Shown: positions 2,139-30,941 of the stretch, in pieces
Position numbering within the stretch: position 1 is the first letter of the stretch
Layout of the letters: every line of letters starts with the position of its first letter
NCBI RefSeq assembly: GCF_947331435.1
Contig: NZ_CAMZOF010000007.1
Coordinates: 186,001 to 250,000, forward strand
Direction of reading: 5' to 3'
DNA from: Pelagibius sp. Alg239-R121
Lineage (GTDB): Bacteria > Pseudomonadota > Alphaproteobacteria > Kiloniellales > Kiloniellaceae
Length of the DNA: 64,000 nt
The notes under the pieces: generated by a model
What the model saw: the letters and a program-made list of their open reading frames with translations, nothing else
Database searches by the model: none
Told to the model about the DNA's origin: nothing
Made by a program: the position numbers and the translations under genes

Positions 2139-4517
2139 ATGACGATAATGCCAAGGTTCGAAGCGCCTGCGACCCGTGGAACGATTTTGGTGCCGGGTCT
2201 TCCGGTGCTGCCGCCCGGCGTCGAACGGCATCCTGTACCCGGCGGTGGTTCGCGGGCCGTTCCCATAGAAGCCGGCGACGAAATTACTCTGGTTGACCGC
2301 GAAGGTCTTCAGCCTTGCGAAATCGTGTTTTTCGATGGGAATGGCCGGTCTGACGTCGCGATGCTCGGCGCCGAAGGCGCAGTTGCTCCCGTGGGACTTC
2401 AGCGCATCCTGGGCGGCAGGGAGTTCTCGGCGCAGCGGGTTCGAAAAGCGCTCGATGCTGGGGGCTTCGATCTCGGCGAGGCACAGGCCTTACGCCTGTT
2501 TGAGCAAAACTCAAGAGCCGGAGACAGCAAAAGCTTCGTGACAAGCAGTGACGGCCTGTTGATCGCTGCTGCACCCGGTGAAGCCATGGCCGTCGATGCG
2601 CAGACGCCGCCCACCGAAATCGTGCTCTACATCAAGCGCGCAAATCCGAAATTTCTCAAGCAACGGCGTTCAGCTCCGGATCCGCTGGCCGATCCCCTGA
2701 CGGACTTCAACATTCAGCCTGGTGAAGCCCAGGCCTACGAGGTCAAGGCTGGTCAATTCATTCAGATCCTCGATGTGCAGGGTAGGGAGTGTTCGGATTT
2801 TCAGGCTTTCGATCTGCGCGCGATCGAACAAGGGCGGGTCGCTGATATAGATCCGACCACGACACGCAGTCTGATGGGGTCTCTCTATCCGGCACCCGGG
2901 CTCTTCGCGAAGTACTATTCTCAAGACCAGGTACCGTTGGTGGAGATCGTCCAGGATACCTGCGGCCGTCATGACACCTTCGGGTTGGCCTGCACTGCGC
3001 GCTATTACGACGATATGGGCTATCCAGGTCATCTCAACTGCTCGGATAACATAAATACCGAACTTGAGAACTACGGCGTGCCGCCCCGTGGCGGCTGGCC
3101 GGCCATCAACTTCTTTTTCAACACAATGCTCGATGACGCCAATGCCATCGGGATGGACGACCCTTGGTCCAGGCCCGGTGACTATGTGCTTCTGCGTGCC
3201 TTAACCGACCTGCTTTGTGTCTCGACCGCCTGTCCTTGCGATGTCGATCCTGCCAACGGCTGGAATCCAACTGACATCCAGACCCGGGTCTATGATGCCA
3301 AGGAAGACTTTCAGCGATCGATAGGATTTCGTATGACCGCCGACGCCGACGTTCAAATGACCAAAAAAACCGGCTTCCACGAGCGGTTTGCGAAACACAC
3401 CCGTAACTTCACCGAATACAACGGCTACTGGCTGGCCAATGATTTCACCGGCCGCGGCGCGCTCGAAGAATATTGGGCCTGCCGTGAGAAGGCAGTGGTG
3501 ATGGATCTCAGCCCCCTGCGCAAATTTGAGGTGCTCGGCCCCGACGCCGAAACGCTGTTGCAGATGTGCATGACCCGCAACATCAAGAAACTCGCGGTGG
3601 GGCAGGTGGTTTACACCGCGATCTGCTACGAGCACGGCGGTATGATTGACGATGGCACTGTGTTCCGGCTCGGCGAAAACAATTTCCGCTGGATCGGAGG
3701 CTGCGAGACGTCGGGAATCTGGCTGCGCGAGCAGGCCGAAAAGCACGGTCTTGATGTCTGGGTGAAGTCCTCGACCGATCAACTGCACAATATCGCCGTT
3801 CAGGGACCGAAAAGCCGCGACATCCTCAAAGAAATCATCTGGACGCCGCCGACACAACCGACTATCGAGGAACTGCCTTGGTTTCGGTTCTCGATCGGCC
3901 GTTTGAACGATTTTCACGGTACGCCGGTGGTGGTCTCGCGCACGGGATACACCGGTGAATTGGGATTCGAAATCTTTTGCCATCCCAAGGCTGCGGAAGA
4001 GGTTTTTGATGCCGTTTGGCAGGCCGGTGAGCCCTATGGTATCTCGCCCTTTGGGCTCGAGGCTCTCAATATGGTTCGGGTTGAGGCAGGCCTGATCTTT
4101 GCCGGTTACGAATTTTCCGATCAGACCAATCCCTTCGAGGCGGGGATTGGTTTCACCGTGCCCCTGAAGTCCAAGAACGACGACTTCATCGGCCGAGACG
4201 CCATCGCCGAACGCAAAGAACATCCTGTGAAGAAGCTGGTCGGGCTGGAGCTGGAAGGCAACCTGGTGCCCGGGCTTGGAGACTGTGTTCGGATCGGGCG
4301 CGCCCAGGTGGGCGAGATCACCTCCGCCGTTCGCTCTCCCTTGCTGGGCAAGGTCATTGCGCTCTGCCGCATGGATGCAGTCCATTCCGAGATTGGCGTG
4401 GAAGTTGAGGTCGGGCAGCTCGACGGCCTGCAGAAACGCATTCCGGCCAAGGTCGTGGGCTTCCCGCACTTCGACCCGACCAAGGAGCGGGTCAAGGGCA
4501 ACTACGAAGCAGCGTAA
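2139..4517 (+). CDS. tdm: Trimethylamine N-oxide demethylase (DUF1989-GcvT fusion)
   Basis: This 792-residue protein has the two-part layout of Tdm: a DUF1989 (urea-carboxylase-associated) zinc domain at roughly residues 185-390 and a GcvT-type tetrahydrofolate-binding domain from about 405 to the end (RTGYTGELGFEIF is the GcvT signature). Tdm converts TMAO to dimethylamine and formaldehyde, and the GcvT part is thought to capture formaldehyde on THF. Cysteines at 275, 301, 360, 365 and 367 in DUF1989 are candidate zinc ligands. About 180 N-terminal residues precede DUF1989, consistent with the length of characterised Tdm. The start is uncertain: a second ATG lies at 2148 and no strong Shine-Dalgarno is visible. 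A DUF1989-GcvT protein acting on another methylated amine cannot be excluded, but tmm in the same window supports TMAO. Confidence 0.82.
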   Translation: MTIMPRFEAPATRGTILVPGLPVLPPGVERHPVPGGGSRAVPIEAGDEITLVDREGLQPCEIVFFDGNGRSDVAMLGAEGAVAPVGLQRILGGREFSAQRVRKALDAGGFDLGEAQALRLFEQNSRAGDSKSFVTSSDGLLIAAAPGEAMAVDAQTPPTEIVLYIKRANPKFLKQRRSAPDPLADPLTDFNIQPGEAQAYEVKAGQFIQILDVQGRECSDFQAFDLRAIEQGRVADIDPTTTRSLMGSLYPAPGLFAKYYSQDQVPLVEIVQDTCGRHDTFGLACTARYYDDMGYPGHLNCSDNINTELENYGVPPRGGWPAINFFFNTMLDDANAIGMDDPWSRPGDYVLLRALTDLLCVSTACPCDVDPANGWNPTDIQTRVYDAKEDFQRSIGFRMTADADVQMTKKTGFHERFAKHTRNFTEYNGYWLANDFTGRGALEEYWACREKAVVMDLSPLRKFEVLGPDAETLLQMCMTRNIKKLAVGQVVYTAICYEHGGMIDDGTVFRLGENNFRWIGGCETSGIWLREQAEKHGLDVWVKSSTDQLHNIAVQGPKSRDILKEIIWTPPTQPTIEELPWFRFSIGRLNDFHGTPVVVSRTGYTGELGFEIFCHPKAAEEVFDAVWQAGEPYGISPFGLEALNMVRVEAGLIFAGYEFSDQTNPFEAGIGFTVPLKSKNDDFIGRDAIAERKEHPVKKLVGLELEGNLVPGLGDCVRIGRAQVGEITSAVRSPLLGKVIALCRMDAVHSEIGVEVEVGQLDGLQKRIPAKVVGFPHFDPTKERVKGNYEAA

Positions 4518-4599
4518 TCTCTTCTGCCGGGGCAAATGGTTTCAAAGAGCGTGGCTGTGCTCTAATCTGGCTAGCCTGTGAATTTGGTTAGTTGAGTTT

Positions 4600-5889
4600 A
4601 TGAGTACCTATCGCTTCGGCGCGGATTTGGCAGTTTCCGCCGCCATGCCGAAATCCAACGTCAAAAGCCGGGAAGCGGTCAAGATTGGCGTTATGGCGCC
4701 TTTTACCGGCGATGCCTCCTCCTGGGGCTTGCCCGGATTCCATGCCAGCCTGATCTGGGCGGACTGGCTGAACGCGGGCGGCGGGCTGCAGGTCGGTGAC
4801 CGCCGCTATCCTGTCGAGATCGCCGCCTACGATGACCAGTATGATCCGGCCCGCGCGGCGATCGGCGCAAAAATGCTGGTCAACTCCGAAGAAGTCCGGC
4901 TGATCCTGACTCTCGGCGGCGACACAATGCCTGCCATCACCGAGTTTCTGACCCGCACCAAGACGCTTGCCACTACGCTGCTACCCAGCGACCTCTCACC
5001 CGACACGCCGTATCTGATCGCACCCTGTGAAGTGCATCCGATCTATGTGGTTACCGGCGTTGACTGGTTGGCCGAAAACCGTCCGCACCTTAAGACCGCG
5101 GCGATCTGTGCTCAGAAGGATGCACTGGGGTTGCCCTCGGTCGCGACCTATCGGGCGGCCTTCGAGGCAGCAGGTATCCAGGTGGTCGAGGAAATCCTTT
5201 TCCCTGGTGCCCTTAAAGATGTGGACGCGATGGTCGAGGTGCTTCTGGACAAGCAGCCTGACATCCTCTGCTGGGATACGGCCTACGAACCCTTCGTCCA
5301 TGCGCTGACCGAGGCGGCCTATCGCAAGGGCTTCAAGGGGCAGATCCTGTCCTGCACCTGCGACAACTACGCATCGCTGGTGGCCAAGACCAGCGAGGAA
5401 TTCATGGAAGGTTTCGTCTTCCAGTTCCCCGATTTCGACGACCCTGCGCTCAACGACCCGCGCATCATGTTCACCCGCCCCAACGAGTTCTACGCTGAAT
5501 TTAACCGCCGATATCCCGGCGAGTGGAGCGCGGTGCCCTGGGAATATTTCTCGATCCTGGAAATCTGGCGCGGCGCCGTCGAGCGCGCCCAGACGGTCGA
5601 AGCTTTGCCCGTGCTTACCGCCATGCGCACCGGCGGCCTGGGCCGTAACGTTTTCGGCGAAGCGCGCTGGTGGGGTAAGGAACTCTTCGGCATCGATCAT
5701 GCCTTGGTCGGCTCCTGGCCTGTCGTCGAAATCCAGCGTGGCCGCGCCCGCGTGGTCGAGTTCCGTTCCATCCTCGATTGGTGGGATCAGCACGGTGAAA
5801 TCCTGCTACGTCACATGCGCGGCTTCGGCCAGATGTGGGATCAGAGAATTGAGCAGCACTTGTCTGGAAGAGATAGTGGTGAAATATAA
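4600..5889 (+). CDS. Branched-chain-type ABC substrate-binding protein lacking a signal peptide
   Basis: A 429-residue Peripla_BP_6 (type I periplasmic-binding fold) protein. From residue 28 (VKIGVMAPFTG) to the end it is strongly similar to the binding protein at 25616, sharing LLPSDLSPD, QKDALGLPSVATY (Q-D-DALGLPSVATY in the other), EFMEGF-FQFPDFDDPALN and FGIDHALVG-type blocks. The N-terminus carries no hydrophobic signal or twin-arginine motif, and an in-frame TGA at 4579-4581 excludes an upstream extension. It should therefore stay in the cytoplasm or be exported atypically. It follows tdm by 82 bp on the same strand, so cotranscription is likely. A cytoplasmic ligand sensor or a decayed transporter component are the alternatives. 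Confidence 0.85.
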   Translation: MSTYRFGADLAVSAAMPKSNVKSREAVKIGVMAPFTGDASSWGLPGFHASLIWADWLNAGGGLQVGDRRYPVEIAAYDDQYDPARAAIGAKMLVNSEEVRLILTLGGDTMPAITEFLTRTKTLATTLLPSDLSPDTPYLIAPCEVHPIYVVTGVDWLAENRPHLKTAAICAQKDALGLPSVATYRAAFEAAGIQVVEEILFPGALKDVDAMVEVLLDKQPDILCWDTAYEPFVHALTEAAYRKGFKGQILSCTCDNYASLVAKTSEEFMEGFVFQFPDFDDPALNDPRIMFTRPNEFYAEFNRRYPGEWSAVPWEYFSILEIWRGAVERAQTVEALPVLTAMRTGGLGRNVFGEARWWGKELFGIDHALVGSWPVVEIQRGRARVVEFRSILDWWDQHGEILLRHMRGFGQMWDQRIEQHLSGRDSGEI

Positions 5890-5976
5890 GATAGTATTAA
5901 TGGTTGAAAATTCGATAATTACGCCCTATTTATAATAACATATGGATTGAAAAACATAGAGAGGTAAATAACAAAC

Positions 5977-6174
5977 ATGGAGTTGTTCGGGTTATTTATA
6001 CCTTTGCATTTTATAATTCTAGGCGCGTTTTCGGTGTTTTTTGTTTTTGGGTGTTGGACATTGTCCAGCGACGGACACGAGAGGCGCGATCCCAAGAAAA
6101 ACTGGTATCCTGATGCCGATCCAGTAAAAGCTGAAACCATACGCAATCACATCCCCGGCGGACTCGACAGGTAG
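5977..6174 (+). CDS. Small membrane protein of unknown function
   Basis: A 65-residue ORF with one strongly hydrophobic segment at about residues 3-29 (LFGLFIPLHFIILGAFSVFF) followed by a charged soluble tail rich in D, R and P. A purine-rich GAGAGGT sits about 11 nt before the ATG. The surrounding DNA is much more AT-rich than the neighbouring genes. I do not recognise the family. It follows the signal-less binding protein on the same strand and a hairpin lies just downstream. The ORF could be spurious, but the segment layout looks protein-like. Confidence 0.45.
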   Translation: MELFGLFIPLHFIILGAFSVFFVFGCWTLSSDGHERRDPKKNWYPDADPVKAETIRNHIPGGLDR

Positions 6175-6182
6175 AGAAGATA

Positions 6183-6205
6183 GATCGAATAGATCTCGTT
6201 CGATC
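6183..6205 (+). terminator. Candidate terminator hairpin after the small membrane protein
   Basis: A perfect 7-bp inverted repeat, GATCGAA and TTCGATC, encloses a 9-nt loop and is followed by GGATTTTCT. The stem is short and the T-run imperfect, so this is a weak intrinsic terminator at best. It lies 8 bp after the stop at 6174. Confidence 0.35.
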
Positions 6206-6376
6206 GGATTTTCTAGGACTTCAGATGCAGATTTCCATTGAACAAGGTCCTCCCGGAATTCTTAAATGATCCCGCTGTAACGGCTCGCAGATTTACGGCT
6301 GTCAAAGCGCCGTGCGGATTCAGGTCTGCTGTTGTAATACCGCCGAAATTTTGTGTTTTGCTTAGAGCGGATAAGT

Positions 6377-6853
6377 ATGAAGTTTTCTATACGCGAAGAC
6401 GACCTCACTGGCGAAGCCATCGCCGGTCTCCTCCAAAACCATCTGGATTTCACTGCCGGCCAATCACCACCGGAGAGCACGCATGCTCTCGATTTGGATG
6501 AACTGCGCGCGCCCGATATCACCTTCTGGAGCGCGTGGGACGGCGGGACTCTGATGGGCTGCGTGGCGTTAAAAGCGTTGGATGCAGTTGAGGGGCAACC
6601 TGGGCACGGCGAAATCAAATCGATGCATACGGCGGAGGCTGCGCGCGGACGTGGCGTGGCGCGTAATTTGATGGAGCATCTGATGGCCGAAGCGCGACGT
6701 CAGGGTTATGGCAGATTGAGCCTGGAGACTGGTTCCATGGAGTCCTTCGCTGCGGCGCGTAAGCTCTACGCCAGCTTCGGTTTCGAGACGTGCGATCCCT
6801 TCGGGAATTATGTAGTGGATCCCTATAGCGAATTCATGACCTTGGAGCTCTAA
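6377..6853 (+). CDS. GNAT-family N-acetyltransferase
   Basis: A 158-residue protein starting at the ATG of MKFSIRED; the earlier in-frame ATG at 6353 is less likely. The acetyl-CoA binding motif A is seen as MHTAEAARGRGVARNLMEHL (about residues 84-103), preceded by the beta4 strand GEIKS and followed by a C-terminal LYASFGFE block typical of small GNATs. It transfers acetyl from acetyl-CoA to an amine of unknown identity. It is convergent with choline-sulfatase, with only 9 bp between the stops. Confidence 0.88.
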   Translation: MKFSIREDDLTGEAIAGLLQNHLDFTAGQSPPESTHALDLDELRAPDITFWSAWDGGTLMGCVALKALDAVEGQPGHGEIKSMHTAEAARGRGVARNLMEHLMAEARRQGYGRLSLETGSMESFAAARKLYASFGFETCDPFGNYVVDPYSEFMTLEL

Positions 6854-6862
6854 GATTGGATG

Positions 6863-8320
6863 CTAATTCCGCACGTATTTCCGCGCGGCGTCATCCCTGA
6901 CGACATAATCCCAATAGGTTCCGTTTTTGGCCATGGCCTCGTTCACGACCTGCTTTTGGGCGAGGCGGGACCAAATTTCCCGTTGGATGAACTCAACATC
7001 GAAGGTCCCGCCAGTCACCAGGCTGGTCAGTTCCTCCTGCACCCTCGCGTAGTTTCGCTGTCCAGCGAGGTTATTCCACTCTCCGGGATCTTCGTCGAGC
7101 TTGAAAAGCTGCGGCTCGGATCCGTGGATGTAGATGAGCTTCCACGGCCCTTTTCGGACCATGAAGCAAGGCCGCATGATGCCTTCGCCATGGTACTCGC
7201 TGATGACCGGAATGATCTCGATATCACCGCCCTGAAGCGCGGAAAGCAGGGATCTGCCATCCATTGGCGTGACCGGTTCGACCGAGGCGATATCCAGAAA
7301 GGTCGCTGGAAGATCCAGCAGCGAAACCGGCGTATCAACGGTTCCTTTGGCGATTCCGGGACCTGCGGCGATCATCGGAATCCGTGTCGACCACTCATAT
7401 AGACTGCGTTTCTGGATCATGCCCTTCTCGCCGAGCATCTCGCCGTGGTCGGCCGTGAAGATGACCAGCGTGTTGCCGTCGAGGCCGGTTTCTTCCAGGA
7501 CCTCCAGTAACTCGCCCAGCTTGTCATCGACGTAATGCGTTAGCGCCAAAAACCCGCGCCGCATCGCGATCAAGTGTTCCGGATCCCGGATGCTGTTCCG
7601 GTCCAGGCCGTACCAGCGGATCAGCGCGCGATCCAGGTCGGAGTAGGAGGCCTCCATATTGTCGGGATAGTGAGGCAGCGGGACCTCCACATCTTTGTAG
7701 AGTTCCCAGTATTTCTTCGGGACGACATAAGGCGGATGCGGGTTGGTGTAGGAAACGGTTAGCATGAACGGGCAATCCGGTGCGTTCCGTAAATATTCCA
7801 GAGCCCGCAGGTGGGTTTCTTCGTCGTACTGAAGTTCGGTGCTCCACCCCGAGCCGATATTCTGGCTGCGGTACTGCGATGTGAAGTCGAAAGCCTCGGC
7901 ACTGTTCTCGTCGGGAAGCGGATAGGACCAGATAAATCCGGCGGGATAGACGTCGGTGTTCAGACGGCGCTGAAATCCGTGCAACTGGTCCGCCCCGATG
8001 AAGTGCATTTTTCCTGTTAGGACCGCTTCGTATCCCGCGTTCGTCAGGTAGTGGGCGAAGGTCGGAATAAAGCTGTGGTAGGGGTCGCCATTATCATAGC
8101 AACCGGTTCTGGACATGTATTGTCCGGTCATCAGACAGGACCTTGCCGGCACACAGATCGGGCTGGGTGTGTAGGCATTGGTGAATTGAACGCCGCGCTC
8201 GGCCAAGGCCGTCAGGTTTTTGGTCTTGGCGCCAGCGTATCCGCAGGCCCCGACCAGGAAGGGTGTCATCTGGTCTGCGACGACGAGCAAGATATTAGGA
8301 CGGGATGGGATTGAACTCAT
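6863..8320 (-). CDS. betC: Choline-sulfatase
   Basis: A 485-residue sulfatase of the alkaline-phosphatase superfamily. Cys56 in SPICVPARS is the formylglycine precursor in the C-x-P-A-R sulfatase signature, and Asp16 (VVADQM) is a calcium-ligand candidate. The segments SRTGCYDNGD, TGKMHFIGADQLHGF and TADHGEMLGEKG closely follow choline-sulfatase BetC, which hydrolyses choline-O-sulfate to choline and sulfate. No signal peptide is visible, as in cytoplasmic BetC. No betA, betB or betI genes adjoin it. It is divergent from a GlxA-type regulator of the kind that controls choline/betaine catabolism. Another sulfate monoester remains possible as the substrate. Confidence 0.85.
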   Translation of the reverse strand: MSSIPSRPNILLVVADQMTPFLVGACGYAGAKTKNLTALAERGVQFTNAYTPSPICVPARSCLMTGQYMSRTGCYDNGDPYHSFIPTFAHYLTNAGYEAVLTGKMHFIGADQLHGFQRRLNTDVYPAGFIWSYPLPDENSAEAFDFTSQYRSQNIGSGWSTELQYDEETHLRALEYLRNAPDCPFMLTVSYTNPHPPYVVPKKYWELYKDVEVPLPHYPDNMEASYSDLDRALIRWYGLDRNSIRDPEHLIAMRRGFLALTHYVDDKLGELLEVLEETGLDGNTLVIFTADHGEMLGEKGMIQKRSLYEWSTRIPMIAAGPGIAKGTVDTPVSLLDLPATFLDIASVEPVTPMDGRSLLSALQGGDIEIIPVISEYHGEGIMRPCFMVRKGPWKLIYIHGSEPQLFKLDEDPGEWNNLAGQRNYARVQEELTSLVTGGTFDVEFIQREIWSRLAQKQVVNEAMAKNGTYWDYVVRDDAARKYVRN

Positions 8321-8420
8321 GACGGCAATGATCCTTCACTACTGGATGCATTGAAGATAACCGGATTGCCGAGACTGACTTATCTGGAATTGGCCAAAAA
8401 ACATCGATAACTTGCCAGTC

Positions 8421-9410
8421 ATGATTTCGCGTTACGACATCGCCTTTTTCATCGCCGATCGCTTTTCCTTGTTTGGTTACGCAGTTGCCAGCGAGATGTT
8501 CCGTTTTGCGAACGAGGCTTTGGGTGAAGCAGTCTACGCGACGAAGGTCGTCGCCTCGTCCGGCAGCGTCGTGTCCTCCTCCAACGGAACGCAGATAACG
8601 CCATCAGCAGCTTTTCACGAAACTTCGAGGATCGACAGCGTCATTCTCTGTTCAGGGACCTGGAACAGGTCTGACAGTGCATCGCAGGATCTGCTGGCCT
8701 GGCTACGCACCCATCATCGTCATGGCGGAACGGTGTGTTCGCTGGCGTCCGCGGTTTGGACAGTTGCCGCGACCGGGTTGCTTGACGGCGGCAGTTGTGC
8801 GGCGCACTGGAGCGAGATAGTTGCGCTACAGCGAACGTTCCCCAATGCGCGGTTTACGACCAGACCCTTTGTCGTCGACAACAGGATCTGGACTTGCTCC
8901 GGCGGCGACAGCGTCACTGATATGATCCTGTACTTTCTGTCGGAACGTCATGGCCTGACACTTGCCGAGAAGGTCAGGAGGATGATCTTGCTGAAACCGG
9001 CTCAGGCCGTTCGTCATCAGCGGGACATCCTGGTTCATGAGCAGACATCCGATGCCGAGCTCGTAGGCGAGCAGCTCTTGGGACTGATCGAGGAAAACAT
9101 CGAAGCGCCGCTTTCAATTCAAGAGCTGTGTGCGCGGCTGTCTGTTCCACAGCGTTCGCTCAATCGTATCTGCCATCTGCTGTTTGGGTGCGCGCCGAAA
9201 GAAGTTTATCTGAACGCCCGATTGGAGCGTGCGAAAAGCCTGTTGGCGAACACCCGCTTTACCGTGACGGACATCGCCGGCTTGTGCGGATTCGGCACTT
9301 CGGCGTATTTTGCGGCGGCCTTCAAAGCCAGATTCAATGACACGCCAATCGCCTTTCGCCGGGATCCGAAAAGTGCCGGGATCGTCAACAGCTCAACGGA
9401 CACCGCATGA
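8421..9410 (+). CDS. GlxA-type AraC regulator (DJ-1/PfpI domain + HTH)
   Basis: A 329-residue protein from the ATG at 8421 (a TTG at 8412 is also in frame). An N-terminal DJ-1/PfpI-like ligand domain covers about residues 5-180; a C-terminal AraC double HTH covers about 215-315 (SIQELCARLSVPQRSLNR, then FTVTDIAGLCGFGTSAYF). This architecture is that of GbdR/CdhR, activators of glycine betaine and carnitine catabolism. It is divergent from choline-sulfatase with a 100-bp spacer, so control of that gene by choline or a derivative is a reasonable inference. Confidence 0.87.
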   Translation: MISRYDIAFFIADRFSLFGYAVASEMFRFANEALGEAVYATKVVASSGSVVSSSNGTQITPSAAFHETSRIDSVILCSGTWNRSDSASQDLLAWLRTHHRHGGTVCSLASAVWTVAATGLLDGGSCAAHWSEIVALQRTFPNARFTTRPFVVDNRIWTCSGGDSVTDMILYFLSERHGLTLAEKVRRMILLKPAQAVRHQRDILVHEQTSDAELVGEQLLGLIEENIEAPLSIQELCARLSVPQRSLNRICHLLFGCAPKEVYLNARLERAKSLLANTRFTVTDIAGLCGFGTSAYFAAAFKARFNDTPIAFRRDPKSAGIVNSSTDTA

Positions 9411-9431
9411 CTCTACGTATGCGAGGTGGCT

Positions 9432-10601: not shown

Positions 10602-10658
10602 AGTTGTTCTCCTACGGTTGAAGAAGTCGGTTAATCCTTCACATGTTAAGCGTTTAAT

Positions 10659-19947: not shown

Positions 19948-19959
19948 GGGAGAAATCAA

Positions 19960-20946: not shown

Positions 20947-20952
20947 GTATCC

Positions 20953-20982: not shown

Positions 20983-21007
20983 ACCCAAGAACAGGTAGGG
21001 CCGCGGT

Positions 21008-21559
21008 ATGAACTTGATTTTGAGGTCATCCGACTGGATTGCCAGAATTGAAGCGGCGCTGCTGAAACTACTGGTGGCGGCTGTGCTGATGCTGATGGTT
21101 CTGAATGTCGTCAGCCGCGCGGTGAACTGGTCCCTGTACTGGGCGGACGAGCTGGCCATCAATCTCATGGTCGTCTTCGCCTTTGTCGGCTCCAGTCTGA
21201 TGTTTGCGCAAAGACGTAATTTTGCAGTGACTCTGTTGTCGGATGCGGTTTCCGGGGCGACCCGCCGCCGGATGTCAATCGCGGTCCAATGCATCAATCT
21301 TGGCTTTGCCTTGTTTCTGGCCTATGCCTGCTGGGTCTGGTTCGATCCGGCGACACTGGCGCAGAGTGGTTTCGATCTGAAGCTGTTTTTTGAGAAAACG
21401 TTTAACAGTGTCTATCAGGAAGTGACCAACACGATAGGCGTGCGCCGATTGTGGTTCTTCCTGGTGATGCCGCTCTTTGCGTTCACTTTGATCATACATA
21501 GCGCGGCCTGCCTTCTGCGGGATGTCTGCAATGTTCCAGCGACCGGAGCCGCGCCATGA
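21008..21559 (+). CDS. TRAP transporter small permease (DctQ family)
   Basis: A 183-residue protein with four predicted transmembrane helices at about 22-42, 55-72, 95-115 and 145-170. The WADELAINLMV segment in helix 2 is typical of DctQ. It partners DctM to form the membrane part of a sodium-driven TRAP importer. Its stop overlaps the dctM start in ATGA. Confidence 0.9.
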   Translation: MNLILRSSDWIARIEAALLKLLVAAVLMLMVLNVVSRAVNWSLYWADELAINLMVVFAFVGSSLMFAQRRNFAVTLLSDAVSGATRRRMSIAVQCINLGFALFLAYACWVWFDPATLAQSGFDLKLFFEKTFNSVYQEVTNTIGVRRLWFFLVMPLFAFTLIIHSAACLLRDVCNVPATGAAP

Positions 21560-22812: not shown

Positions 22813-22988
22813 GAACAGTCAAGTCCGCTGTAGGATCATTGCACTCGTTCGGATTTGAAGCAGCATCAGTCGAAGTGGGCTCGAACCAGCCGTTCGATGC
22901 TCCTTCAACGACAGGCCGCAAAAGGTGCCGCTGACCAGTTGTAGAACGTACTATTCTACTACGATCCGAAATGACCCTAATTGCCTCC

Positions 22989-23756
22989 TTAAGCGCTGCT
23001 GACAAGATCCTGATGAAAATCGGCCAGCAGCAGCTTTAAGTGCTCGACCGCCGACTCGATATCCCGGTTCTCGATCGCCTGACAGAGCGAGCGGTTGTGC
23101 AGTTGATGCTGCTTGATGCGAAGAGGAGAGAGGTTGCGTCGGCGGCTGACCGCCCAAGCGGCAGTGCTGCTGACCTGCAGAATGATCCGATGCATCGCGA
23201 TCAACAGGGGGTTGCGTGAGCCTTCCGCTAAGAGTGATCGGATTTCATCGTCGATTTTCGAGAACTTTTCGCCGTCCACCGTCACCTGTTCCAGGCGAAT
23301 CTGTATCTGCTTCATGCGTTCAACGTCGCGTGAGGTCATGTTGAGAACCGCGAGGCGGGCGATTTCGGGCTCGATGATGGAGCGTACGACGCCCAGTTCC
23401 AACGGACTGGTGATTTCAGCGATCTCTGCCAGGTTCAACAGGTTTTCGCTTGGCTGTTCGATGGGTTCCGGCTGTTGGGGGCTGCGGGCCTGGCGCAGGC
23501 GCACGACGGCGCCACTGCCGGGCCGGCGCTCAATGACGCCATAGCGTTCCAGCAATTCCAGGGCTTGACGCACCGTCGCGCGGGACACGCCGCTCTGCTC
23601 GGCAAAACTCCGTTCCGCCGGCAACCGAGTGCCGTAGTCATAGGTCCCGTTAATGATTTCGGCAAAAATATCGTCTGCCAATTTCTTCGTGGCACGGGTG
23701 ACCGGTTTATCAATCTTATCGTCGGCCTCCCAAGGGGGGCTGGTTAACAGGTTCAT
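22989..23756 (-). CDS. GntR-family regulator, FadR subfamily
   Basis: A 255-residue protein: N-terminal winged helix at about 25-90 (LPAERSFAEQSGVSRATVRQALELLERYGVIERRPGSG) and an all-helical FCD effector domain at about 105-245 containing the D/H metal-ligand pattern of the subfamily. FadR-type GntR proteins usually sense organic acids and repress catabolic operons. It is convergent with the TRAP operon, which it may control; it is also upstream on the same strand as nothing obvious and 177 bp from tmm. Confidence 0.9.
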   Translation of the reverse strand: MNLLTSPPWEADDKIDKPVTRATKKLADDIFAEIINGTYDYGTRLPAERSFAEQSGVSRATVRQALELLERYGVIERRPGSGAVVRLRQARSPQQPEPIEQPSENLLNLAEIAEITSPLELGVVRSIIEPEIARLAVLNMTSRDVERMKQIQIRLEQVTVDGEKFSKIDDEIRSLLAEGSRNPLLIAMHRIILQVSSTAAWAVSRRRNLSPLRIKQHQLHNRSLCQAIENRDIESAVEHLKLLLADFHQDLVSSA

Positions 23757-23933
23757 TCACTTTCCGATTCAGCATTGGCCCACTGCTCAAACTTGATCGC
23801 TTCGATTCAGGGTCGAGCACGCTCAAGATGCGCAGGCGGATTGGCCATTACTTAGTACAGAAAAATACCTTTGACCAGTTTCCGCCTGCACCTCGGGAGG
23901 ACCTTGGTTTCGGAAATTCAAAGCCTTTCGTGA

Positions 23934-25304
23934 TTAGGCCTGAGCCTCCTTCTTATCGTTCGGAGCATAGAGATAGCTCTCCAGCGAATCGTCCAGGGCT
24001 TCCAACCAAGGCGTGTGATGTGTTGGCGACATGGTGCCGGTCATAAGTGAGCGGTAGGCCTGATTGCGAAAACCCATGATGTTCTCTTCCTTATGGTGCT
24101 CCCACTCCATAAAGGTCTTGTTCACGCCGTCGACATCGAAGCTGGGGTAATCGGTGGCGTCGATCAAATCCTGTACGTAGTCGCCTTGGAAGTAGATCTG
24201 ATCCTCCGGCCCGCCCAATGCATCCTCGCGTTCGCACCAGGGCTGGTTTTCCTGCTGCATTTCCGCTTTGGAGGCAGGCAGCGTGATGCGACCCAATATA
24301 ATGTCCCGGGCGTACCAGGCCTGGGCGTCGAACATATTGAAGGTGTAGAACTGGTCCTGCATGCCCAGGTACATCAATTTCGGATTATCCTCCCAGCAGA
24401 TGCCCTTGTAGAGATTGCGCGTCCACATCCGGTTGGCGGTTTCCAAACGAAGGCCGTCTGGCAGGAAGGGGAAGTGGTGCAAATATCCTGTGCAGAGGAT
24501 GATGGCGTCCACTTCCTTGGTGGTGCCGTCCTTGAAGGTCGCCGTCTTGTTCTCGACCTTGGTTAGCAGCGGGACTTCCTGCCAATTGTCCGGCCAATGG
24601 AAACCCATCGGTCCTGTGCGATGGCTTACGGTGATCGACTTCGCGCCGTACTTGTAACATTGGGAACCGATGTCCTCGGCCGAGTAGCTGGTGCCGATGA
24701 GGAGAAGATCCTTGTCCTTGAATTCAAGCGCATCGCGGAAGTCGTGGGCGTGTAGAATACGCCCATTGAAGTCGCGGAAGCCCTCGAACTGAGGCACATT
24801 GGGTGTTGAGAAGTGACCGGATGCAACGATCACGTAGTCGAAGACTTCATCGTAGATGTGACTGTTCGGCAGATCGTGGGCCGTCACTGTGAACTTTCCG
24901 CTCGTCTCATCGTATTCGACGTGGCGTACGGGCGTACTGAAACGAATCCAATCCCTGACACCGGCTTTTTCGACCCGACCTTTTATGTAGTCCCAAAGGA
25001 CGGCGCGGGGCGGGTAGGAGGCAATCGGCCGGCCGAAGTGTTCTTCGAAACTATAGTCGGCAAATTCCAGGCATTCCTTTGGGCCGTTGGACCAGAGATA
25101 GCGGTACATGCTGCAATGAACCGGTTCGCCGTGTTCATCCAGACCTGTCCGCCAGGTATAGTTCCACAGCCCGCCCCAATCGGATTGCTTTTCGAAACAG
25201 ACCACTTCGGGAATCTCAGCGCCCTTGCTGGCGGCCGATTGAAAAGCGCGTAATTGCGCCAGCCCCGAAGGGCCGGCTCCGATGACGGCGACACGTGTTG
25301 TCAT
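23934..25304 (-). CDS. tmm: Trimethylamine monooxygenase (flavin-containing monooxygenase)
   Basis: A 456-residue FMO that follows known marine Tmm proteins almost throughout ([68 protein letters not shown]). It oxidises trimethylamine to TMAO with NADPH and O2. The FAD motif GAGPSG is at residues 9-14, the FMO signature is [11 protein letters not shown] and the NADPH motif is GTSYSAED. The ATG at 25304 is chosen because GGGAGA precedes it and it begins at the Rossmann strand; the ORF extends 39 codons upstream without support. It is divergent from an ABC importer operon. Confidence 0.95.
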
Positions 25305-25615
25305 GTTCGTCTCCCTGGATTGTTGATTGCCTCTTTGACCTTGATTCAGCTTACTTTTTGCTTCGAAAAAGATGTGAACCAAATTATACCAAATATTACC
25401 AATTTGTTCACAATAGGCCATTTTAAGTCCATTATCCAGACCAAATGACCCAATCCTGTTAACATTTGGTCTATTTTTGATTGAAACCTGACCTCCTTGT
25501 TGCTATCGTCCATGAAAATCGCCGTCAAATTGGTACATGAATGGTCCATTTTGGTCGAGCTGGAGCGGGCGATATTCCTGCCCGACTCTCAATCAAAACA
25601 GGGGAGGGAGATTCA
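25305..25615. promoter_or_regulatory. tmm / ABC-importer divergent control region
   Basis: This AT-rich 311-bp region has no gene. A near-perfect inverted repeat GTGAACCAAATT (25374-25385) / AATTTGTTCAC (25401-25411) and a perfect 9-bp one, GACCAAATG (25439-25447) / CATTTGGTC (25463-25471), are visible. ACCAAA or TTTGGT occurs several more times, including near 25388 and 25550. A possible sigma70 promoter for the importer has TTGAAA at 25481 and TATCGT at 25504 with a 17-bp spacer. The repeats are good operator candidates; the regulator is not evident. Confidence 0.55.
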
Positions 25616-26920
25616 ATGATCAGCAAGCTCTTGAGTGGAATGGTAAGCCGTCGTCGGTTGCTTGGGACCGCCGCTTCAGTCGCCGGTGCAGGCGCACTAG
25701 GCAGTCTTTTGCCCGTCCGGGCCTTTGCCGCCGACAAGGTGGTCAAAATCGGATTTCTTGCGCCACTGACCGGCGAAGTCGCGGCCTGGGGCAAACCTGG
25801 CCTCGATGGCTGCCAGATTTGGGCAGAGTGGGTCAACGCGGCAGGCGGTCTAACGATCGGCGGCGAGGCGCACCAAGTTGAGTTCGTCGCCTACGACAAC
25901 GAATACGACCCCGGAAAAGCCCGGGCAGGGGCGACCAAGCTGATCAAGGAAGACGGTGTCAAGTTTATCATGATGCTGGGCGGTGATACCTGGCCCGGCG
26001 TTCAGAAGGTCGCCGAGCGCGAGGGTATGCTGTTTTCAACGTTGCTGCCGTCTGATCTTTCACCGGATTCCAGCACGCTGCTGGCCCCGGCCGAGGTCCA
26101 CCCGATTTACAACGTCACCGGTGTCGAATGGCTCGCGGAAAACAAGCCCGATCTCAAGACCGCAGTGATGTGCGCGCAGGACGATGCGCTTGGATTGCCG
26201 TCCGTCGCAACTTATCTGGCTGCCTTCGAAGCCGCCGGAATCGAGATGCTGGACGATCCTCTGCTGTTCGATCCGGCCACCACCGACTTTGCGCCGGTTG
26301 TCACAAAACTGCTCGCCAAAAACCCTGCCATCGTTTCCCTCGACACCTGCTATTCAGACTACGTGCATCCAATTTGCGAGCAGCTGTTTCAGCAAGGCTA
26401 TAAAGGCCAGATCATCTCCTGCACTGCCGATTTCTACGAGAAGATCGTCGAGAAGACCTCGAAGGAATTTATGGAAGGCTTCATTTTCCAGTTCCCGGAC
26501 TTTGATGATCCTGCGCTGAACGGCGAGCAGATCAACTTCCAACGGCCCAACGAATTCTATGCCGAGTACAATAAACGCCATCCGGGTGAGTGGGGCGCGG
26601 TTTCATGGGAATACGCTTCGATCATGGATCTTTGGAAGGCCGGTGCCGAAAAGGCCGGTTCGGTCGAGCCTGACGCCGTGTTGGCGGCCATGAAAGATGG
26701 CGGTTCCGGCAAGCACGCCTTTGGTGACGCCAGCTGGTGGGGCGAAGATCTTTTCGGGATCGATAATGCGCTGGTCGGTGACTGGCCGGTTGTTGTCATT
26801 GAAAACGGCAAGGCCGTGATCAAGGGCTTCAAGTCGATCCCTGCATGGTACGACAAGCACGGCAAACTGTTGGTCAAGCACATGGAAGCGCTCGATCAGA
26901 TGCACTATCAGCGCGGTTGA
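25616..26920 (+). CDS. Branched-chain-type ABC transporter substrate-binding protein
   Basis: A 434-residue Peripla_BP_6 protein. The ATG at 25616 has an excellent GGGGAGGGAG upstream. A twin-arginine leader (SRRRLLGTAAS, cleavage near AFAA-DK) precedes the mature domain VKIGFLAPLTGE. It is closely related over its whole mature length to the signal-less protein beside tdm. It delivers ligand to the LivHMGF-type permease encoded next. Divergence from tmm makes TMA, TMAO or another methylated amine the leading ligand guess; amides, urea or branched-chain amino acids are alternatives for this superfamily. Confidence 0.9.
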   Translation: MISKLLSGMVSRRRLLGTAASVAGAGALGSLLPVRAFAADKVVKIGFLAPLTGEVAAWGKPGLDGCQIWAEWVNAAGGLTIGGEAHQVEFVAYDNEYDPGKARAGATKLIKEDGVKFIMMLGGDTWPGVQKVAEREGMLFSTLLPSDLSPDSSTLLAPAEVHPIYNVTGVEWLAENKPDLKTAVMCAQDDALGLPSVATYLAAFEAAGIEMLDDPLLFDPATTDFAPVVTKLLAKNPAIVSLDTCYSDYVHPICEQLFQQGYKGQIISCTADFYEKIVEKTSKEFMEGFIFQFPDFDDPALNGEQINFQRPNEFYAEYNKRHPGEWGAVSWEYASIMDLWKAGAEKAGSVEPDAVLAAMKDGGSGKHAFGDASWWGEDLFGIDNALVGDWPVVVIENGKAVIKGFKSIPAWYDKHGKLLVKHMEALDQMHYQRG

Positions 26921-26941
26921 TCTTCCCGGTTCTGAATAAAG

Positions 26942-26963
26942 GGGCCCGGTTTGCGCCGGGTCC
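26942..26963 (+). terminator. Hairpin between ABC binding-protein and permease genes
   Basis: An 8-bp GC-rich stem, GGGCCCGG with CCGGGTCC (one G-U pair), encloses a 6-nt loop, with further AAAGG/CCTTT pairing potential outside. No T-run follows. Its position after the binding-protein gene suggests mRNA stabilisation or partial termination to raise binding-protein levels. Confidence 0.55.
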
Positions 26964-26997
26964 GTCCTTTCACCCATAGAATCCGGGTTGATCCTTT

Positions 26998-27867
26998 ATG
27001 CTGGAACTGCTTGCGCAGACCGCCCTCAACGCCACTTATGCTGCCAGCTACATTGCACTTGTTGCCGTCGGTCTGGTGTTGATCTTCGGCGTCATGGGCG
27101 TGGTCAACTTTGCCCACGGCGAACTCTATATGCTCGGAGCCTACGCCGTCGTCGCGCTTTACGCTGATGCCGGTTTCCCCTTTTTCCTGGCCGCCGCCGT
27201 CGGACTGATTTTCGTGGGTATTGTCGGAATCGGTATGGAACGTACTTTGTTCCGCCCTTTGCGGGACAATCCCCTGGGTGGCCTGGTGGCCTCAATCGGT
27301 TTTCTGCTGATCCTACAGTCGTTGGCGTCCGTCTGGTTCGGTGTGCGCATGGAACATATTCCACCCTCGACCCAGCAGATCCTGCGGTTTTCCGATAGCG
27401 TCAGCCTGCCGGTTCAACGGCTCTATGTGATCGTCGGTGCTGTCATCCTCCTGACCGCGCTGTGGCTTTTCCTCAAACGCTCGCGTTTCGGTTGGGCGCT
27501 GCGGGCCAGTGCACAGGATCCCGAAGCTGCAGCTTTGCAGGGCATTTCCATCAACCAGACAGCCCGCATCGCCATGTTTATCGGCGCCGGGTTGGCGGGG
27601 GTTGCCGGTGCCCTGACGGCACCCCTGGTGCGCACTTTTCCCTACATGGGACACTCAGTCATAGTGACTGCCTTTATCGTTATCATTGTCGGTGGCGTGG
27701 GCAGTCTGGAAGGGGCCGTCCTGGCGGCTGTGATCTACGCTTTTGTCCATACCTTCGTGACTACCTTCTTCGATGGTGTAATCGCCGATATTGTCGGCCT
27801 GTCGCTGATGCTGCTGGTGCTGATCGTAAAGCCAACAGGTATGTTCGGGACTGCGGACCGTGCCTGA
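26998..27867 (+). CDS. ABC transporter permease (LivH family)
   Basis: A 289-residue integral membrane protein with about eight helices. It carries LivH-type motifs: VVNFAHGELYMLGAY near residue 37, RPLRDNPLGGLVASIG, and the cytoplasmic loop RFGWALRASAQDPEAAALQGI that contacts the ATPases. It is half of the permease pair fed by the upstream binding protein. It overlaps the next gene by 8 bp. Confidence 0.93.
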   Translation: MLELLAQTALNATYAASYIALVAVGLVLIFGVMGVVNFAHGELYMLGAYAVVALYADAGFPFFLAAAVGLIFVGIVGIGMERTLFRPLRDNPLGGLVASIGFLLILQSLASVWFGVRMEHIPPSTQQILRFSDSVSLPVQRLYVIVGAVILLTALWLFLKRSRFGWALRASAQDPEAAALQGISINQTARIAMFIGAGLAGVAGALTAPLVRTFPYMGHSVIVTAFIVIIVGGVGSLEGAVLAAVIYAFVHTFVTTFFDGVIADIVGLSLMLLVLIVKPTGMFGTADRA

Positions 27868-28882
27868 GGAACGCCGCAATAGCCACTCATTGGCCTGGCT
27901 AGCCGTGCTTTATGCAGGTCTGATCGCGTTGCCTTACGCGCTCAGTTATTCGCAACAGGAAATCCTGGTCTTTACCACCATCAATGTCCTGCTGGTGATG
28001 AGCTACCGCCTTCTAACCCTCACCGGCGAGTGGTCGCTCGGGCATGTTGTCATCATGGGCTGCGGCGCCTATGCCAGCGCCTTGGCGTCCAAGGCACTCG
28101 GTTTGCCTGTTCCGCTGTCCATGCTGATCGGCGGCGTTATTGCCGGCCTGATTGCCTGGGCGCTCAGCTATCCGCTGTTTCGCATGAAAGGTTTTTATTT
28201 CCTGATCGGGTCTTTTGCCGCCGGCGAGATCATCCGCCTACTGTGGAAACGCTTCCGAGATCCCTTCGGCGGGCCGAAAGGCATCAAACGTATTCCGGAC
28301 CTTGGCACCATTGAGATTGGCGGCTTCACGATCGATTTTTACGAGCCCGTGACCTATTACTACGTCGCACTGGCAGTTGTATCGGTATCGCTTTTCATCT
28401 TATGGCGGATCGAGCGCTCGCCCATCGGCCTGACATTTCACGCAGTCCACTGGCAGGACAAATTGGCAGAATCCGTGGGCGTCGATACACGGCGTTATCG
28501 TATCCAGGCCTTTGTCATTGCGTCGTTCTTCGCGGGGATTTCGGGTGCGCTCCTGGCTCACTATGTCGGCACGATCAATCCCAACCGCTTTAATGTCGAG
28601 GAGATGGTCTATGTCCTGACCTGGGCCATCGTCGGCGGCACCGCCACTTTCTACGGACCGATCCTGGGTGCGGTTGCCCTCATTGTGATCAACGACATTC
28701 TTTTGCGCGAGCTGGGTTTCGACCAGCTCAGACCCATGTTCTACGGTTTGATCCTCATCTGTTCCGTCCTTTTTCTGCCCAAGGGCCTGGAGAGTTTGGT
28801 GCCTCGAATCTCTAGGCTCGTTCGGCGAGGCAATCACAATCCAAGCCCGCCGAAGGTCCAACCGCAGGAGGGCGCGGAATGA
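27860..28882 (+). CDS. ABC transporter permease (LivM family)
   Basis: A 340-residue membrane protein starting at a GTG that overlaps the LivH-type stop. The LivM pattern is present: GEWSLGHVVIMGCGAY near residue 55, and the EAA-like loop SPIGLTFHAVHWQDKLAESVGVD. The C-terminus is a short charged cytoplasmic tail. It pairs with the upstream permease. The stop overlaps the first ATPase start by 4 bp. Confidence 0.92.
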   Translation: MPEERRNSHSLAWLAVLYAGLIALPYALSYSQQEILVFTTINVLLVMSYRLLTLTGEWSLGHVVIMGCGAYASALASKALGLPVPLSMLIGGVIAGLIAWALSYPLFRMKGFYFLIGSFAAGEIIRLLWKRFRDPFGGPKGIKRIPDLGTIEIGGFTIDFYEPVTYYYVALAVVSVSLFILWRIERSPIGLTFHAVHWQDKLAESVGVDTRRYRIQAFVIASFFAGISGALLAHYVGTINPNRFNVEEMVYVLTWAIVGGTATFYGPILGAVALIVINDILLRELGFDQLRPMFYGLILICSVLFLPKGLESLVPRISRLVRRGNHNPSPPKVQPQEGAE

Positions 28883-29646
28883 CGTTGTTGCTCGATGTGC
28901 GTGCCGCGACCATGCGCTTCGGCGGACTGACTGCCGTGGACAATCTGAGCTTTTCGGTCGAAGCCGGTTCGATCCATGGGTTGATCGGGCCGAATGGTGC
29001 GGGCAAGACCACCAGCTTCAACCTGATCAGCGGCTTCTATACTCCAACGTCTGGCGAAATCATCTATCGGGGCGAAAACATCGCTGGAATCGGTACCCAC
29101 CGCACAGCGGCCAAAGGGCTGGTCCGGACCTTTCAGCATTCGACACTGTTCCAGGAATTCACCCTGCTGGAAAATGCCGTGGTCGGCTGTCACCTCAACC
29201 TGCGGCCAAGCCTTGCCGGGGCGATATTTGGGAATGATCGCCGACGCCGGCGCGCAGCCCGGGAGCGGGCGGAGGAAGTTCTTGAATTTTTTGGCCTGGC
29301 TGAACGACGGCATGAACTGGCCTCTGAGCTTGCTCACGGGCACCAGCGCGCCCTTGGTATGGCAGTGGCCATGGCGGCAAACCCGACCCTGATGCTTCTG
29401 GACGAACCCTTTACCGGCATGAACCCTGAAGAAACCAAGCGCATGATGGAACTGACCTTCAAACTGCGCGACAGCGGGGTCACGATCCTGATCGTGGAGC
29501 ATGACATGCATGCCATCATGGGACTGTGCGACAGGATCACGGTTATGTCGTTTGGGCGCCTGCTCGCCGAGGGCGTACCGCAGGAGATTCGCGAGAACCC
29601 TAAGGTAATCGAGGCTTACCTGGGAGGAGGCGCCCATGCAGCCTGA
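28879..29646 (+). CDS. ABC transporter ATP-binding protein (LivG family)
   Basis: A 255-residue ATPase with Walker A GPNGAGKTT (residues ~35-43) and Walker B LMLLDEPFTGMNPEE. The ABC signature position reads LAHGHQRALGMAVA instead of the standard LSGGQ. LAHGHQR-type variants are common in LivG-like proteins (usually LPYGxQR). The NPEET sequence after Walker B is also typical of LivG. It energises the importer together with the LivF-type protein. Ends overlap its neighbours. Confidence 0.93.
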   Translation: MTLLLDVRAATMRFGGLTAVDNLSFSVEAGSIHGLIGPNGAGKTTSFNLISGFYTPTSGEIIYRGENIAGIGTHRTAAKGLVRTFQHSTLFQEFTLLENAVVGCHLNLRPSLAGAIFGNDRRRRRAARERAEEVLEFFGLAERRHELASELAHGHQRALGMAVAMAANPTLMLLDEPFTGMNPEETKRMMELTFKLRDSGVTILIVEHDMHAIMGLCDRITVMSFGRLLAEGVPQEIRENPKVIEAYLGGGAHAA

Positions 29647-30373
29647 TCCTCTGTCGTCCGAATCTGCCCTGCTTCAAATCGTCGGCGCTTCGGTCAACTA
29701 CAATAAGGTTTCCGCCGTCCGGAACCTGAACATGAAAATTCCGCACGGTGGCATCGTGACCATTATCGGTGCCAACGGTGCAGGTAAAACCACGACCCTG
29801 CGCGCGATTTCCGGCCTCTCGAAGCTCTCCGGCGGCGAAATCCGGTTCGATGGCGGCCGGATCGATAACCTGAACCCGGAACAGGTCGTTGCCAGGGGTA
29901 TCGCACATGTGCCCGAGGGACGGCGGGTCTTCCCCGATATGACGGTCGAAGAGAACCTGCGCACCGGCGCCTTCCTGCGTCGGGACCAGGAGGCGATCGA
30001 GAGTGACCTATCCGCAGTCTTTGGTCGCTTTCCTCGTCTGGAAGAACGGCGAAGCCAATTGGCCAAGACAATGTCCGGCGGCGAACAGCAAATGCTGGCC
30101 ATCGGCCGTGCCCTGATGGCGAAACCGCGCCTGCTTTTGCTTGACGAACCCTCTATGGGACTCGCGCCCGTGATCGTCGAGGAGATGGGGCGTATCGTCG
30201 TGGAGATCAGCCGCGAAGGTGTGCCGGTGGTTCTGGTCGAACAGAACGCCGAACTGGCGTTGGGTCTGGCAGACTATGCCTATGTTTTGGAAACTGGCAA
30301 TCTGGTGCTGGAAGGACCGGCAAAGGAGTTGCACGAAAATGACCATGTCCGCAGAGCCTACCTCGGTCTCTGA
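29636..30373 (+). CDS. ABC transporter ATP-binding protein (LivF family)
   Basis: A 245-residue ATPase: Walker A GANGAGKTT, ABC signature MSGGEQQMLAIGRALM, Walker B LLLLDEPSMGLAP, and the LivF-specific HVPEGRRVFPDMTVEENL. It overlaps LivG by 11 bp. It is the second nucleotide-binding subunit of the five-gene importer. The downstream unknown gene begins inside its 3' end. Confidence 0.93.
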   Translation: MQPDPLSSESALLQIVGASVNYNKVSAVRNLNMKIPHGGIVTIIGANGAGKTTTLRAISGLSKLSGGEIRFDGGRIDNLNPEQVVARGIAHVPEGRRVFPDMTVEENLRTGAFLRRDQEAIESDLSAVFGRFPRLEERRSQLAKTMSGGEQQMLAIGRALMAKPRLLLLDEPSMGLAPVIVEEMGRIVVEISREGVPVVLVEQNAELALGLADYAYVLETGNLVLEGPAKELHENDHVRRAYLGL

Positions 30374-30941
30374 ACCGAACCCGGAGCTTGCCGCTGCTTT
30401 AGCCGCTGGCTGGCGGCGGTGTGATCTGGAATGGGAGCAGTTGCAGGAGGCCGGTAACGCCGCTTTGCTCAACGGTGAAGATGCACGGGCGGTAAGCCTC
30501 TTCCTAAAAGCCTACCGCCTGGCCTTTTTCCGCTTTCGCCGCGGCGATCCGCGTTATGCCACCAGTCTCGCCAATGCCGGTTTGGCCGCTCGGATGCGAG
30601 GTAGAAAAGGGCAGGCTGATCGCCGCTATGACAAGGCTATGATGCTCTGGGGGCAGGTGCCAAACCAGATCGGCCAACTCCAGATCAAGCCCCGCGCCCG
30701 CAGCTCGCTTTTTCACCTGCGCATGGAAGCACGCCATTGGGAGACCTACCGCGCCAACATGGAAGCGCGCTTGGGCGGATTTGTCGGCGAGACCAGCGAA
30801 TGCCTGCAGGCCATTGCCCAGGGCGATAAGCCACTTCACCGTCTCTACGCCCGCTGGCGCGGCGAGCAGCCGTCGGTCTTCGACGATACCCGGAAATTGC
30901 TGGCTGCTGCGCTGTTGCTTGCGGCTCCCACTGCTGTTTAG
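30339..30941 (+). CDS. Helical TPR-like protein of unknown function in the ABC operon
   Basis: A 200-residue, Ala/Arg-rich protein predicted mostly helical, with a repeat-like segment at about residues 38-85 (GNAALLNGEDARAVSLFLKA, then SLANAGLAARMRGRKGQADR) reminiscent of tetratricopeptide pairs. No signal peptide or enzymatic motif is visible. The start is the ATG at 30339 with AAAGGAG about 10 nt upstream; it overlaps the LivF-type gene by 35 bp, so it is surely cotranscribed with the importer. The family is not recognised. A chaperone or regulator of the importer, or an adaptor for the imported substrate pathway, is conceivable. Confidence 0.7.
   Translation: MTMSAEPTSVSEPNPELAAALAAGWRRCDLEWEQLQEAGNAALLNGEDARAVSLFLKAYRLAFFRFRRGDPRYATSLANAGLAARMRGRKGQADRRYDKAMMLWGQVPNQIGQLQIKPRARSSLFHLRMEARHWETYRANMEARLGGFVGETSECLQAIAQGDKPLHRLYARWRGEQPSVFDDTRKLLAAALLLAAPTAV

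Follow-up and report, generated by a model that had tools for sequence, protein, structure and literature searches.

A putative methylated-amine ABC importer linked to tmm and tdm in Pelagibius, and a signal-less paralogue of its binding protein

Several described systems bear on the uptake and sensing of methylated amines. The HAAT-type ATP-binding cassette (ABC) importers LivJKHMGF and UrtABCDE have a five-gene layout, in which a PF13458 binding protein of the UrtA/LivK-like fold is accompanied by paired PF02653 permeases and paired ATPases. AmiC, the cytosolic amide receptor of Pseudomonas aeruginosa, belongs to the same fold class; it is a relative of binding proteins that acts as a cytosolic sensor and is partnered with AmiR. 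This paper concerns a window, that is, the whole stretch of 64,000 nucleotides analysed from the 8.02-Mb genome of Pelagibius sp. Alg239-R121 (RefSeq assembly GCF_947331435.1, contig NZ_CAMZOF010000007.1; G000:C7:186001-250000), in which two PF13458 proteins, here called A and B, are found beside genes for the metabolism of trimethylamine (TMA) and trimethylamine N-oxide (TMAO). A follows tdm (TMAO demethylase), while B opens a HAAT-type importer that is divergent from tmm (TMA monooxygenase). According to the accessible part of PMC8918994, the ABC importer TmoXWV is also linked to tmm and tdm, but its binding protein, TmoX, is of the betaine type and so of a different family from B. TMA uptake of the kind proposed here has been ascribed to TmaT, a BCCT Na+/TMA symporter, and to MttP, which is hypothetical, whereas the window system is of the ABC type; these two were the only proteins named as implicated in TMA transport in the available part of a 2024 text (PMC11708041), where the word ABC is absent. 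TmoR is the GntR repressor of tmm in Ruegeria pomeroyi, and the window likewise has a GntR gene near tmm; according to PMC13390433, tmm and tmoR usually have between them a gene whose function is unknown. In R. pomeroyi, tmm is SPO1551 and tmoR is SPO1553. No Liv-type methylated-amine importer was found among the titles and abstract openings searched, most subscription papers lying outside that search, which is not proof of absence.

A preliminary description of the window, made from its letters alone, had placed a Peripla_BP_6 gene (4600) after tdm, and a full LivHMGF-type importer with a binding protein (25616) divergent from tmm. Both arrangements were confirmed by profile matches: Tdm exceeded its equivalog cut-off, the 4600 product belongs to PF13458, and at the second locus a PF13458 protein, two BPD_transp_2 permeases and two ATPases stand in one row (Table 1). 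The two binding proteins had also been called near-identical, which was an overstatement, their identity being 54% over 407 amino acids. The host genome contains 26 PF13458 matches (25 above cut-off), and because the best-scoring relative of B after A is only 29% identical, one distinct binding-protein pair sits beside the two enzymes. Every NCBIfam model of the Liv system was missed (bits against cut-off: LivG 265/362, LivF 246/441, LivM 127/366, LivH 120/379, binding protein 41/477), as was every model of the Urt system (UrtA 29/493, UrtB 194/250, UrtC 100/296, UrtD 204/304, UrtE 214/286); these cut-offs are strict, and falling short of them leaves Liv or Urt substrates possible. The importer resembles Liv and Urt systems in layout and fold, but differs from them in its scores and in its linkage to TMA/TMAO enzymes.

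From its sequence and genomic context, the system formed by B, the permeases and the ATPases is probably a methylated-amine ABC importer. The ligand captured by B, which is exported by the twin-arginine (Tat) route, would be a small methylated ammonium ion, TMA most likely and dimethylamine (DMA) perhaps. From B it would pass to the LivHM-type permeases, with the LivGF-type ATPases supplying the power (25616-30373). Imported TMA would then be oxidised by Tmm, as here, or by TMA dehydrogenase (TMADH) in other genomes, with Tdm acting on TMAO from Tmm. A, which is probably cytosolic and probably has the same amine or a downstream one as its ligand, would most likely serve together with the GntR/FCD regulator as a receptor inside the cell, a role that is put forward tentatively.

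The distribution of the binding proteins across genomes was compared with that of the enzymes. The clade was defined by E <= 1e-60 to B, which catches both A and B, and Tmm and Tdm were counted above cut-off. Two samples, comprising 61 genomes of the order and 308 genomes spread over the class, together contained 29 distinct clade genomes. The order sample had the clade in 17 genomes, Tmm in 16 and Tdm in 24; Tmm occurred in 11/17 clade genomes compared with 5/44 others (Fisher p = 7e-5), and Tdm in 15/17 compared with 9/44 (Fisher p = 1.7e-6). Corresponding totals for the class were 14, 15 and 22, with Tdm in 11/14 clade genomes compared with 11/294 others (p = 4.7e-12) and Tmm in 7/14 compared with 8/294 (p = 3.8e-7); for both samples the p-values are only a guide, the genomes being related by descent. 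Tdm was the commonest companion (24/29 clade genomes). Tmm, Tdm or a true TMADH (hits of at least 49% identity, found in five genomes) was present in 28/29, a proportion that has no background rate because TMADH was looked for in clade genomes only. A loose TMADH threshold (E <= 1e-100) was rejected; it matched 21/29 genomes, but outside the five genomes the hits were 40-45% identical and represent a different paralogue group. The preliminary description had left to a genome survey the question of whether the clade is common without tmm or tdm, and among the sampled genomes it was not common where the enzymes are missing. Its idea of a Liv- or urea-type importer for methylated amines is upheld by this co-occurrence, while its inclusion of A in the importer and of TMAO among the likely ligands is less probable, for reasons given below.

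The best evidence for a methylated-amine link is provided by the exceptions that have TMADH in place of Tmm and Tdm. Five clade genomes contained neither Tmm nor Tdm (G018, G019, G076, G145 and G254), and in all of these except G019 a TMADH gene lay 0.2-5.6 kb from B. The G018 protein scored 1300 bits to PDB 1djn and the G145 protein 996 bits, and those of G076 and G254 were 58-60% identical to the G018 protein. In G346, which has Tdm, there were two B copies, each with its own TMADH-family gene less than 250 bp away, and TMADH was therefore within 6 kb of B in five genomes overall. Tyr60, Ser74 and Trp105 of TMADH, positions at which dimethylamine dehydrogenase presumably differs, were kept in five of the six copies. 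The remaining copy, from G346 (L089:5981-8155), had Ala60 and Leu74 and stood beside its own B paralogue; it possibly has another amine specificity, co-varying with its binding protein. The G018 cluster also contained serine-cycle-type genes, including a malate-CoA ligase above cut-off. In two further genomes (G010 and G011) the importer adjoined a homologue of type III glutamine synthetase, which in G010 exceeded the family cut-off and shared 62% identity with the gene located beside tmm2 in P. aminophilus. PMC4543880 puts an mgsABC-gmaS operon at that site, and we infer that the homologue is gmaS. For P. aminophilus JCM 7686 (pAMI6), tmm mutants are described in the same paper.

Species genomes were scanned and contained 424 encoded relatives, of which only the best 80 (71-82% identity) were examined, among them Roseovarius sp. 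217, R. mucosus and several Leisingera; the counts that follow apply to these 80 named loci, which partly repeat genomes of the other samples (L101 = G018, L099 = G020), and to fetched flanks of up to 10 kb, often shortened by contig ends. Flanks contained Tmm at 45 loci, Tdm at 18 and TMADH at 4, with at least one of these at 50. When 28 of the 30 loci without a flank enzyme were considered genome-wide, Tdm was found above cut-off in 23 and below cut-off only in 2, with none in 3; the other two (L147 and L167) appear to correspond to G040 and G017, both of which have Tdm. At 29 loci the order was tmm(-) A(+) GntR(-) B(+), tmm being directly divergent from A, and at a further 15 it was directly divergent from B. 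A protein family designated c4 followed the last ATPase at 51 loci. One record labelled Bacillota (L130, Oceanobacillus sp. HTM 045) has an importer copy nested among alphaproteobacterial ones and is probably mislabelled or contaminated.

The division of the pair into exported and non-exported members is stronger as a finding, and easier to test, than the importer claim from which the analysis set out. Export motifs were read upstream of the mature start, omitting hits below 45% identity and those with the mature start off the locus, and some of the loci counted repeat a genome. On this basis, a strict pattern found a twin-arginine motif in 105/108 B copies, and inspection by eye showed RRFFL or RRMFL in the remaining three. 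No A copy had the motif (0/45). No signal peptide was visible on inspection of A in the window, and the short N-termini of A copies resemble each other. A maximum likelihood tree of 95 sequences, taken from 162 by leaving out those under 330 amino acids and then near-copies, placed 41 A sequences in a single group (support 100/99), which falls inside B when rooted as drawn. Among plasmids, 17 records matched and 10 were inspected. Eight of these loci (Paracoccus-type) had A divergent from tmm and no related LivH-type permease in the fetched flank, ATPases being outside this check. The ninth, on P. aminovorans plasmid IV, had A together with a GntR/FCD gene near a TMADH of 79% identity, and its flank contained no tmm. 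A GntR/FCD gene was convergent with A in 8/9 plasmid loci containing A; in the exception, from Thioclava, this gene was on the far side of tdm, and nearby there was a further importer, of annotated branched-chain type, with its own binding protein. Because A carries no Tat signal, forms one signal-less clade and occurs beside tmm without this importer, it is probably neither importer hardware nor a periplasmic binding protein, and it probably stays in the cytosol.

Many core residues of A are the same as in B, and A probably binds a similar ligand for this reason. The chance that A is a receptor of any kind is put at slightly less than even. More tentative is the specific proposal that it is an internal methylated-amine receptor, which would relieve or steer repression by a GntR/FCD protein of the TmoR type, a single lineage then serving both uptake (B) and sensing (A). 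A GntR gene was next to A and convergent with it in 36/39 named loci containing A, homologues of the window regulator (22989-23756) with 33-60% identity were found in the same cluster type elsewhere, and the plasmid loci agree in 8/9 cases. Like AmiC, A combines a periplasmic-binding fold (PF13458; fold via its 54% identity to B) with the lack of an export signal; unlike AmiC, it was not seen with an AmiR/ANTAR partner, its neighbour in the mapped loci being a GntR/FCD gene and no genome-wide ANTAR search having been made. A single ANTAR gene was seen, about 6 kb from A, in locus L183. With about the same probability as that specific proposal, A is no sensor, and either carries or buffers the amine in the cytosol or does something else. 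In the window it comes directly after tdm, position by itself is no proof of regulation, and 3/39 named loci with A had no GntR gene in the cluster; the single clade with its conserved N-terminus and core residues, and the recurrent convergent GntR gene, argue in the other direction.

Besides the limits given with the counts above, several observations weigh against the proposed importer and receptor. The clade was absent from 8/15 Tmm genomes and 11/22 Tdm genomes of the class sample; it is not required for the pathway, and the link is one-sided. Seven of the 29 clade genomes had Tdm but neither Tmm nor true TMADH, two of them (G221 and G318) at 100% completeness, and such genomes suit DMA or TMAO better than TMA. 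Only A was seen in 3/29 (G006, G019 and G060), and G019 was the sole clade genome showing none of Tmm, Tdm and TMADH; this is a 90%-complete draft, in which the A-GntR pair is on a 7.3-kb contig ending just past GntR, at the expected place of B. The next-best paralogue of B in this genome outside the clade (L011), intended as a control, was found in only 2/308 genomes at E <= 1e-100, which is too few. In the window itself, A lies approximately 17 kb from the GntR gene. Finally, the tenth plasmid locus (Rhizobium sp. NZLR1 plasmid p5, L178:8911-14238) had a 42% identical, signal-bearing relative with a full importer, by two choline dehydrogenases. The Rhizobium system is a sister importer, perhaps for another amine.

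It is very improbable that this is an ordinary importer of branched-chain amino acids, urea or short amides that has acquired its neighbours by chance. The fold class is the same, with the AlphaFold2 model of B (pLDDT 86.8) having UrtA and LivK as its best PDB fold matches, and the strictness of the NCBIfam cut-offs also speaks for such an importer; it is opposed by the repeated linkage to three different TMA/TMAO enzymes and by the failure of every part to reach the Liv and Urt cut-offs. AmiC (1qnl) ranked 41 against the model (E = 9.5e-17). When the PDB was searched by profile, the single match was a partial one, to 4n0q. Pocket residues were read from a single, remote HMMER alignment of B to the amino-acid receptor 3ip5, where Gly122 and Leu148 of B align to the positions of Ser79 and Thr102 of leucine-binding protein, which we take to be its two carboxylate contacts; their replacement in B would speak mildly against an amino-acid ligand. 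Two residues that A and B conserve, Asp147 and Trp58, were considered as marks of a methylated-amine pocket and rejected, being present too in both outgroups (the Rhizobium L178 relative and the L074 relative), while Asp272 of A and B is Glu and Leu in these two.

As ligand of the proposed methylated-amine importer, TMA agrees with Tmm and with TMADH, and DMA with Tdm and with TMADH. TMAO agrees with Tdm, but the TMADH-only genomes do not suit it. TMA as the main ligand is given a little under an even chance. DMA, or monomethylamine (MMA), in its place is unlikely but has several points in its favour. DMA is a product of both Tdm and TMADH, and the importer adjoins a gmaS-like gene in G010 and G011, while the part of PMC13390433 available describes DMA as the main TmoR effector in R. 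pomeroyi; on the other hand, the commonest flank enzyme in the named loci was Tmm (45/80), which acts on TMA and is directly divergent from A at 29 loci and from B at 15. A TMAO importer, as a second system beside TmoXWV, is more doubtful still. Its case lies in Tdm being the commonest companion and in the seven genomes with Tdm but neither Tmm nor true TMADH, but TmoX-like proteins (E <= 1e-45) are already present in 8/14 class clade genomes, and a TMAO importer would not accommodate the four genomes in which TMADH lies within 6 kb of B and both Tmm and Tdm are missing. The host has its TmoX-like protein (61% identity) as a separate gene elsewhere (G000:C11:100589-101464); identity was 66% in G318 and 39-45% in the other six, for which TmoX function is less sure. 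B itself matches PF13458 and PF13433 only, without a betaine-type match, and the suggestion that the importer is a stand-in for TmoX was rejected on account of these eight genomes. Given the TmoX-like protein of the host and the four TMADH genomes, TMA (or DMA) is likelier than TMAO, which the preliminary description had counted among the likely ligands. The probability that is left falls to a main ligand other than TMA, DMA/MMA or TMAO.

Coordinates of the genes and of a candidate operator are given in Table 1. The NF058570 match on the tmm open reading frame (ORF) opens only at residue 43, and the true start is for this reason probably near 25304. The TPR-like protein after the last ATPase appears to be a member of family c4, judging by its place and a common weak TPR match. 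A second Tdm-like gene (G000:C2:187368-189683) scored 1021 bits, below the cut-off of 1100, and similar copies below cut-off were likewise seen in the three same-genus genomes searched. At 37331-39397 (-) the window encodes a flavoenzyme that shares 42% identity with TMADH and does not reach the NCBIfam cut-offs shown. Near tdm there is a choline-sulfatase-like enzyme (6863-8320, -; 415.5 bits against a cut-off of 433.45), adjoined by a gene for a GbdR-like AraC regulator (8412-9410, +; below cut-off).

Table 1. Features of the window. Positions count from the first nucleotide of the window.
Feature	Position	Strand	Evidence and remarks
tdm, TMAO demethylase	2139..4517	+	NCBIfam NF053776 equivalog 1258.7 bits, cut-off 1100; DUF1989 + GCV_T
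Binding protein A, signal-less Peripla_BP_6 paralogue	4600..5889	+	PF13458; no Tat motif; 82 bp after tdm
GntR/FCD regulator, directly downstream of tmm	22989..23756	-	PF00392 + PF07729; TmoR-like by position and family
tmm, TMA monooxygenase	ORF 23934..25421	-	NCBIfam NF058570 equivalog 850.4 bits, cut-off 675
Perfect 10-bp inverted repeat, 15-bp spacer, tmm/B intergenic	25438..25472	.	Candidate operator, putative function
Binding protein B	25616..26920 (listed ORF from 25541)	+	PF13458; twin-arginine signal
Permease, LivH/UrtB type	26998..27867	+	PF02653; under UrtB and LivH cut-offs
Permease, LivM/UrtC type	27860..28882	+	PF02653; under LivM and UrtC cut-offs
ATPase, LivG type	28879..29646	+	PF00005 + PF12399 (BCA_ABC_TP_C tail); under LivG and UrtD cut-offs
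ATPase, LivF type	29636..30373	+	PF00005; under LivF and UrtE cut-offs
Small TPR-like protein after last ATPase	30367..30941, start approximate (listed ORF 30219-30941)	+	Weak TPR_12 match, below cut-off

The exact inverted repeat at 25438-25472 occurred once in the window and in 0/100 shuffles, the pattern having been picked after it was seen. In the named loci, the motif TGGTN4ACCA was present in 14/42 regions separating tmm from A or B and in 1/30 GntR regions; with one mismatch allowed it was present in 30/72 regions, compared with a mean of 7.6 in mononucleotide shuffles. The longer pattern TTGGTN4ACCAA (up to two mismatches) was rejected as an operator in the window, where it was no commoner than chance.

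TMA, a compound with a fishy smell, belongs with its relatives to the nitrogen compounds that are widespread in the sea. If the proposal is correct, the window would encode an ABC-type TMA importer, none having been found described in the sources available, and an ABC route in cultured Roseovarius and Leisingera would alter how TMA use is read from genomes, permeases of this kind currently passing in annotation as branched-chain amino acid transporters. A holds the place between tmm and the GntR gene in 29/80 named loci, and a receptor at that place might, if true, account for the gene reported between tmm and tmoR. The exported and non-exported pair would also illustrate clearly, in nature, how an import protein may have become an intracellular sensor, and this is testable in cultured strains.

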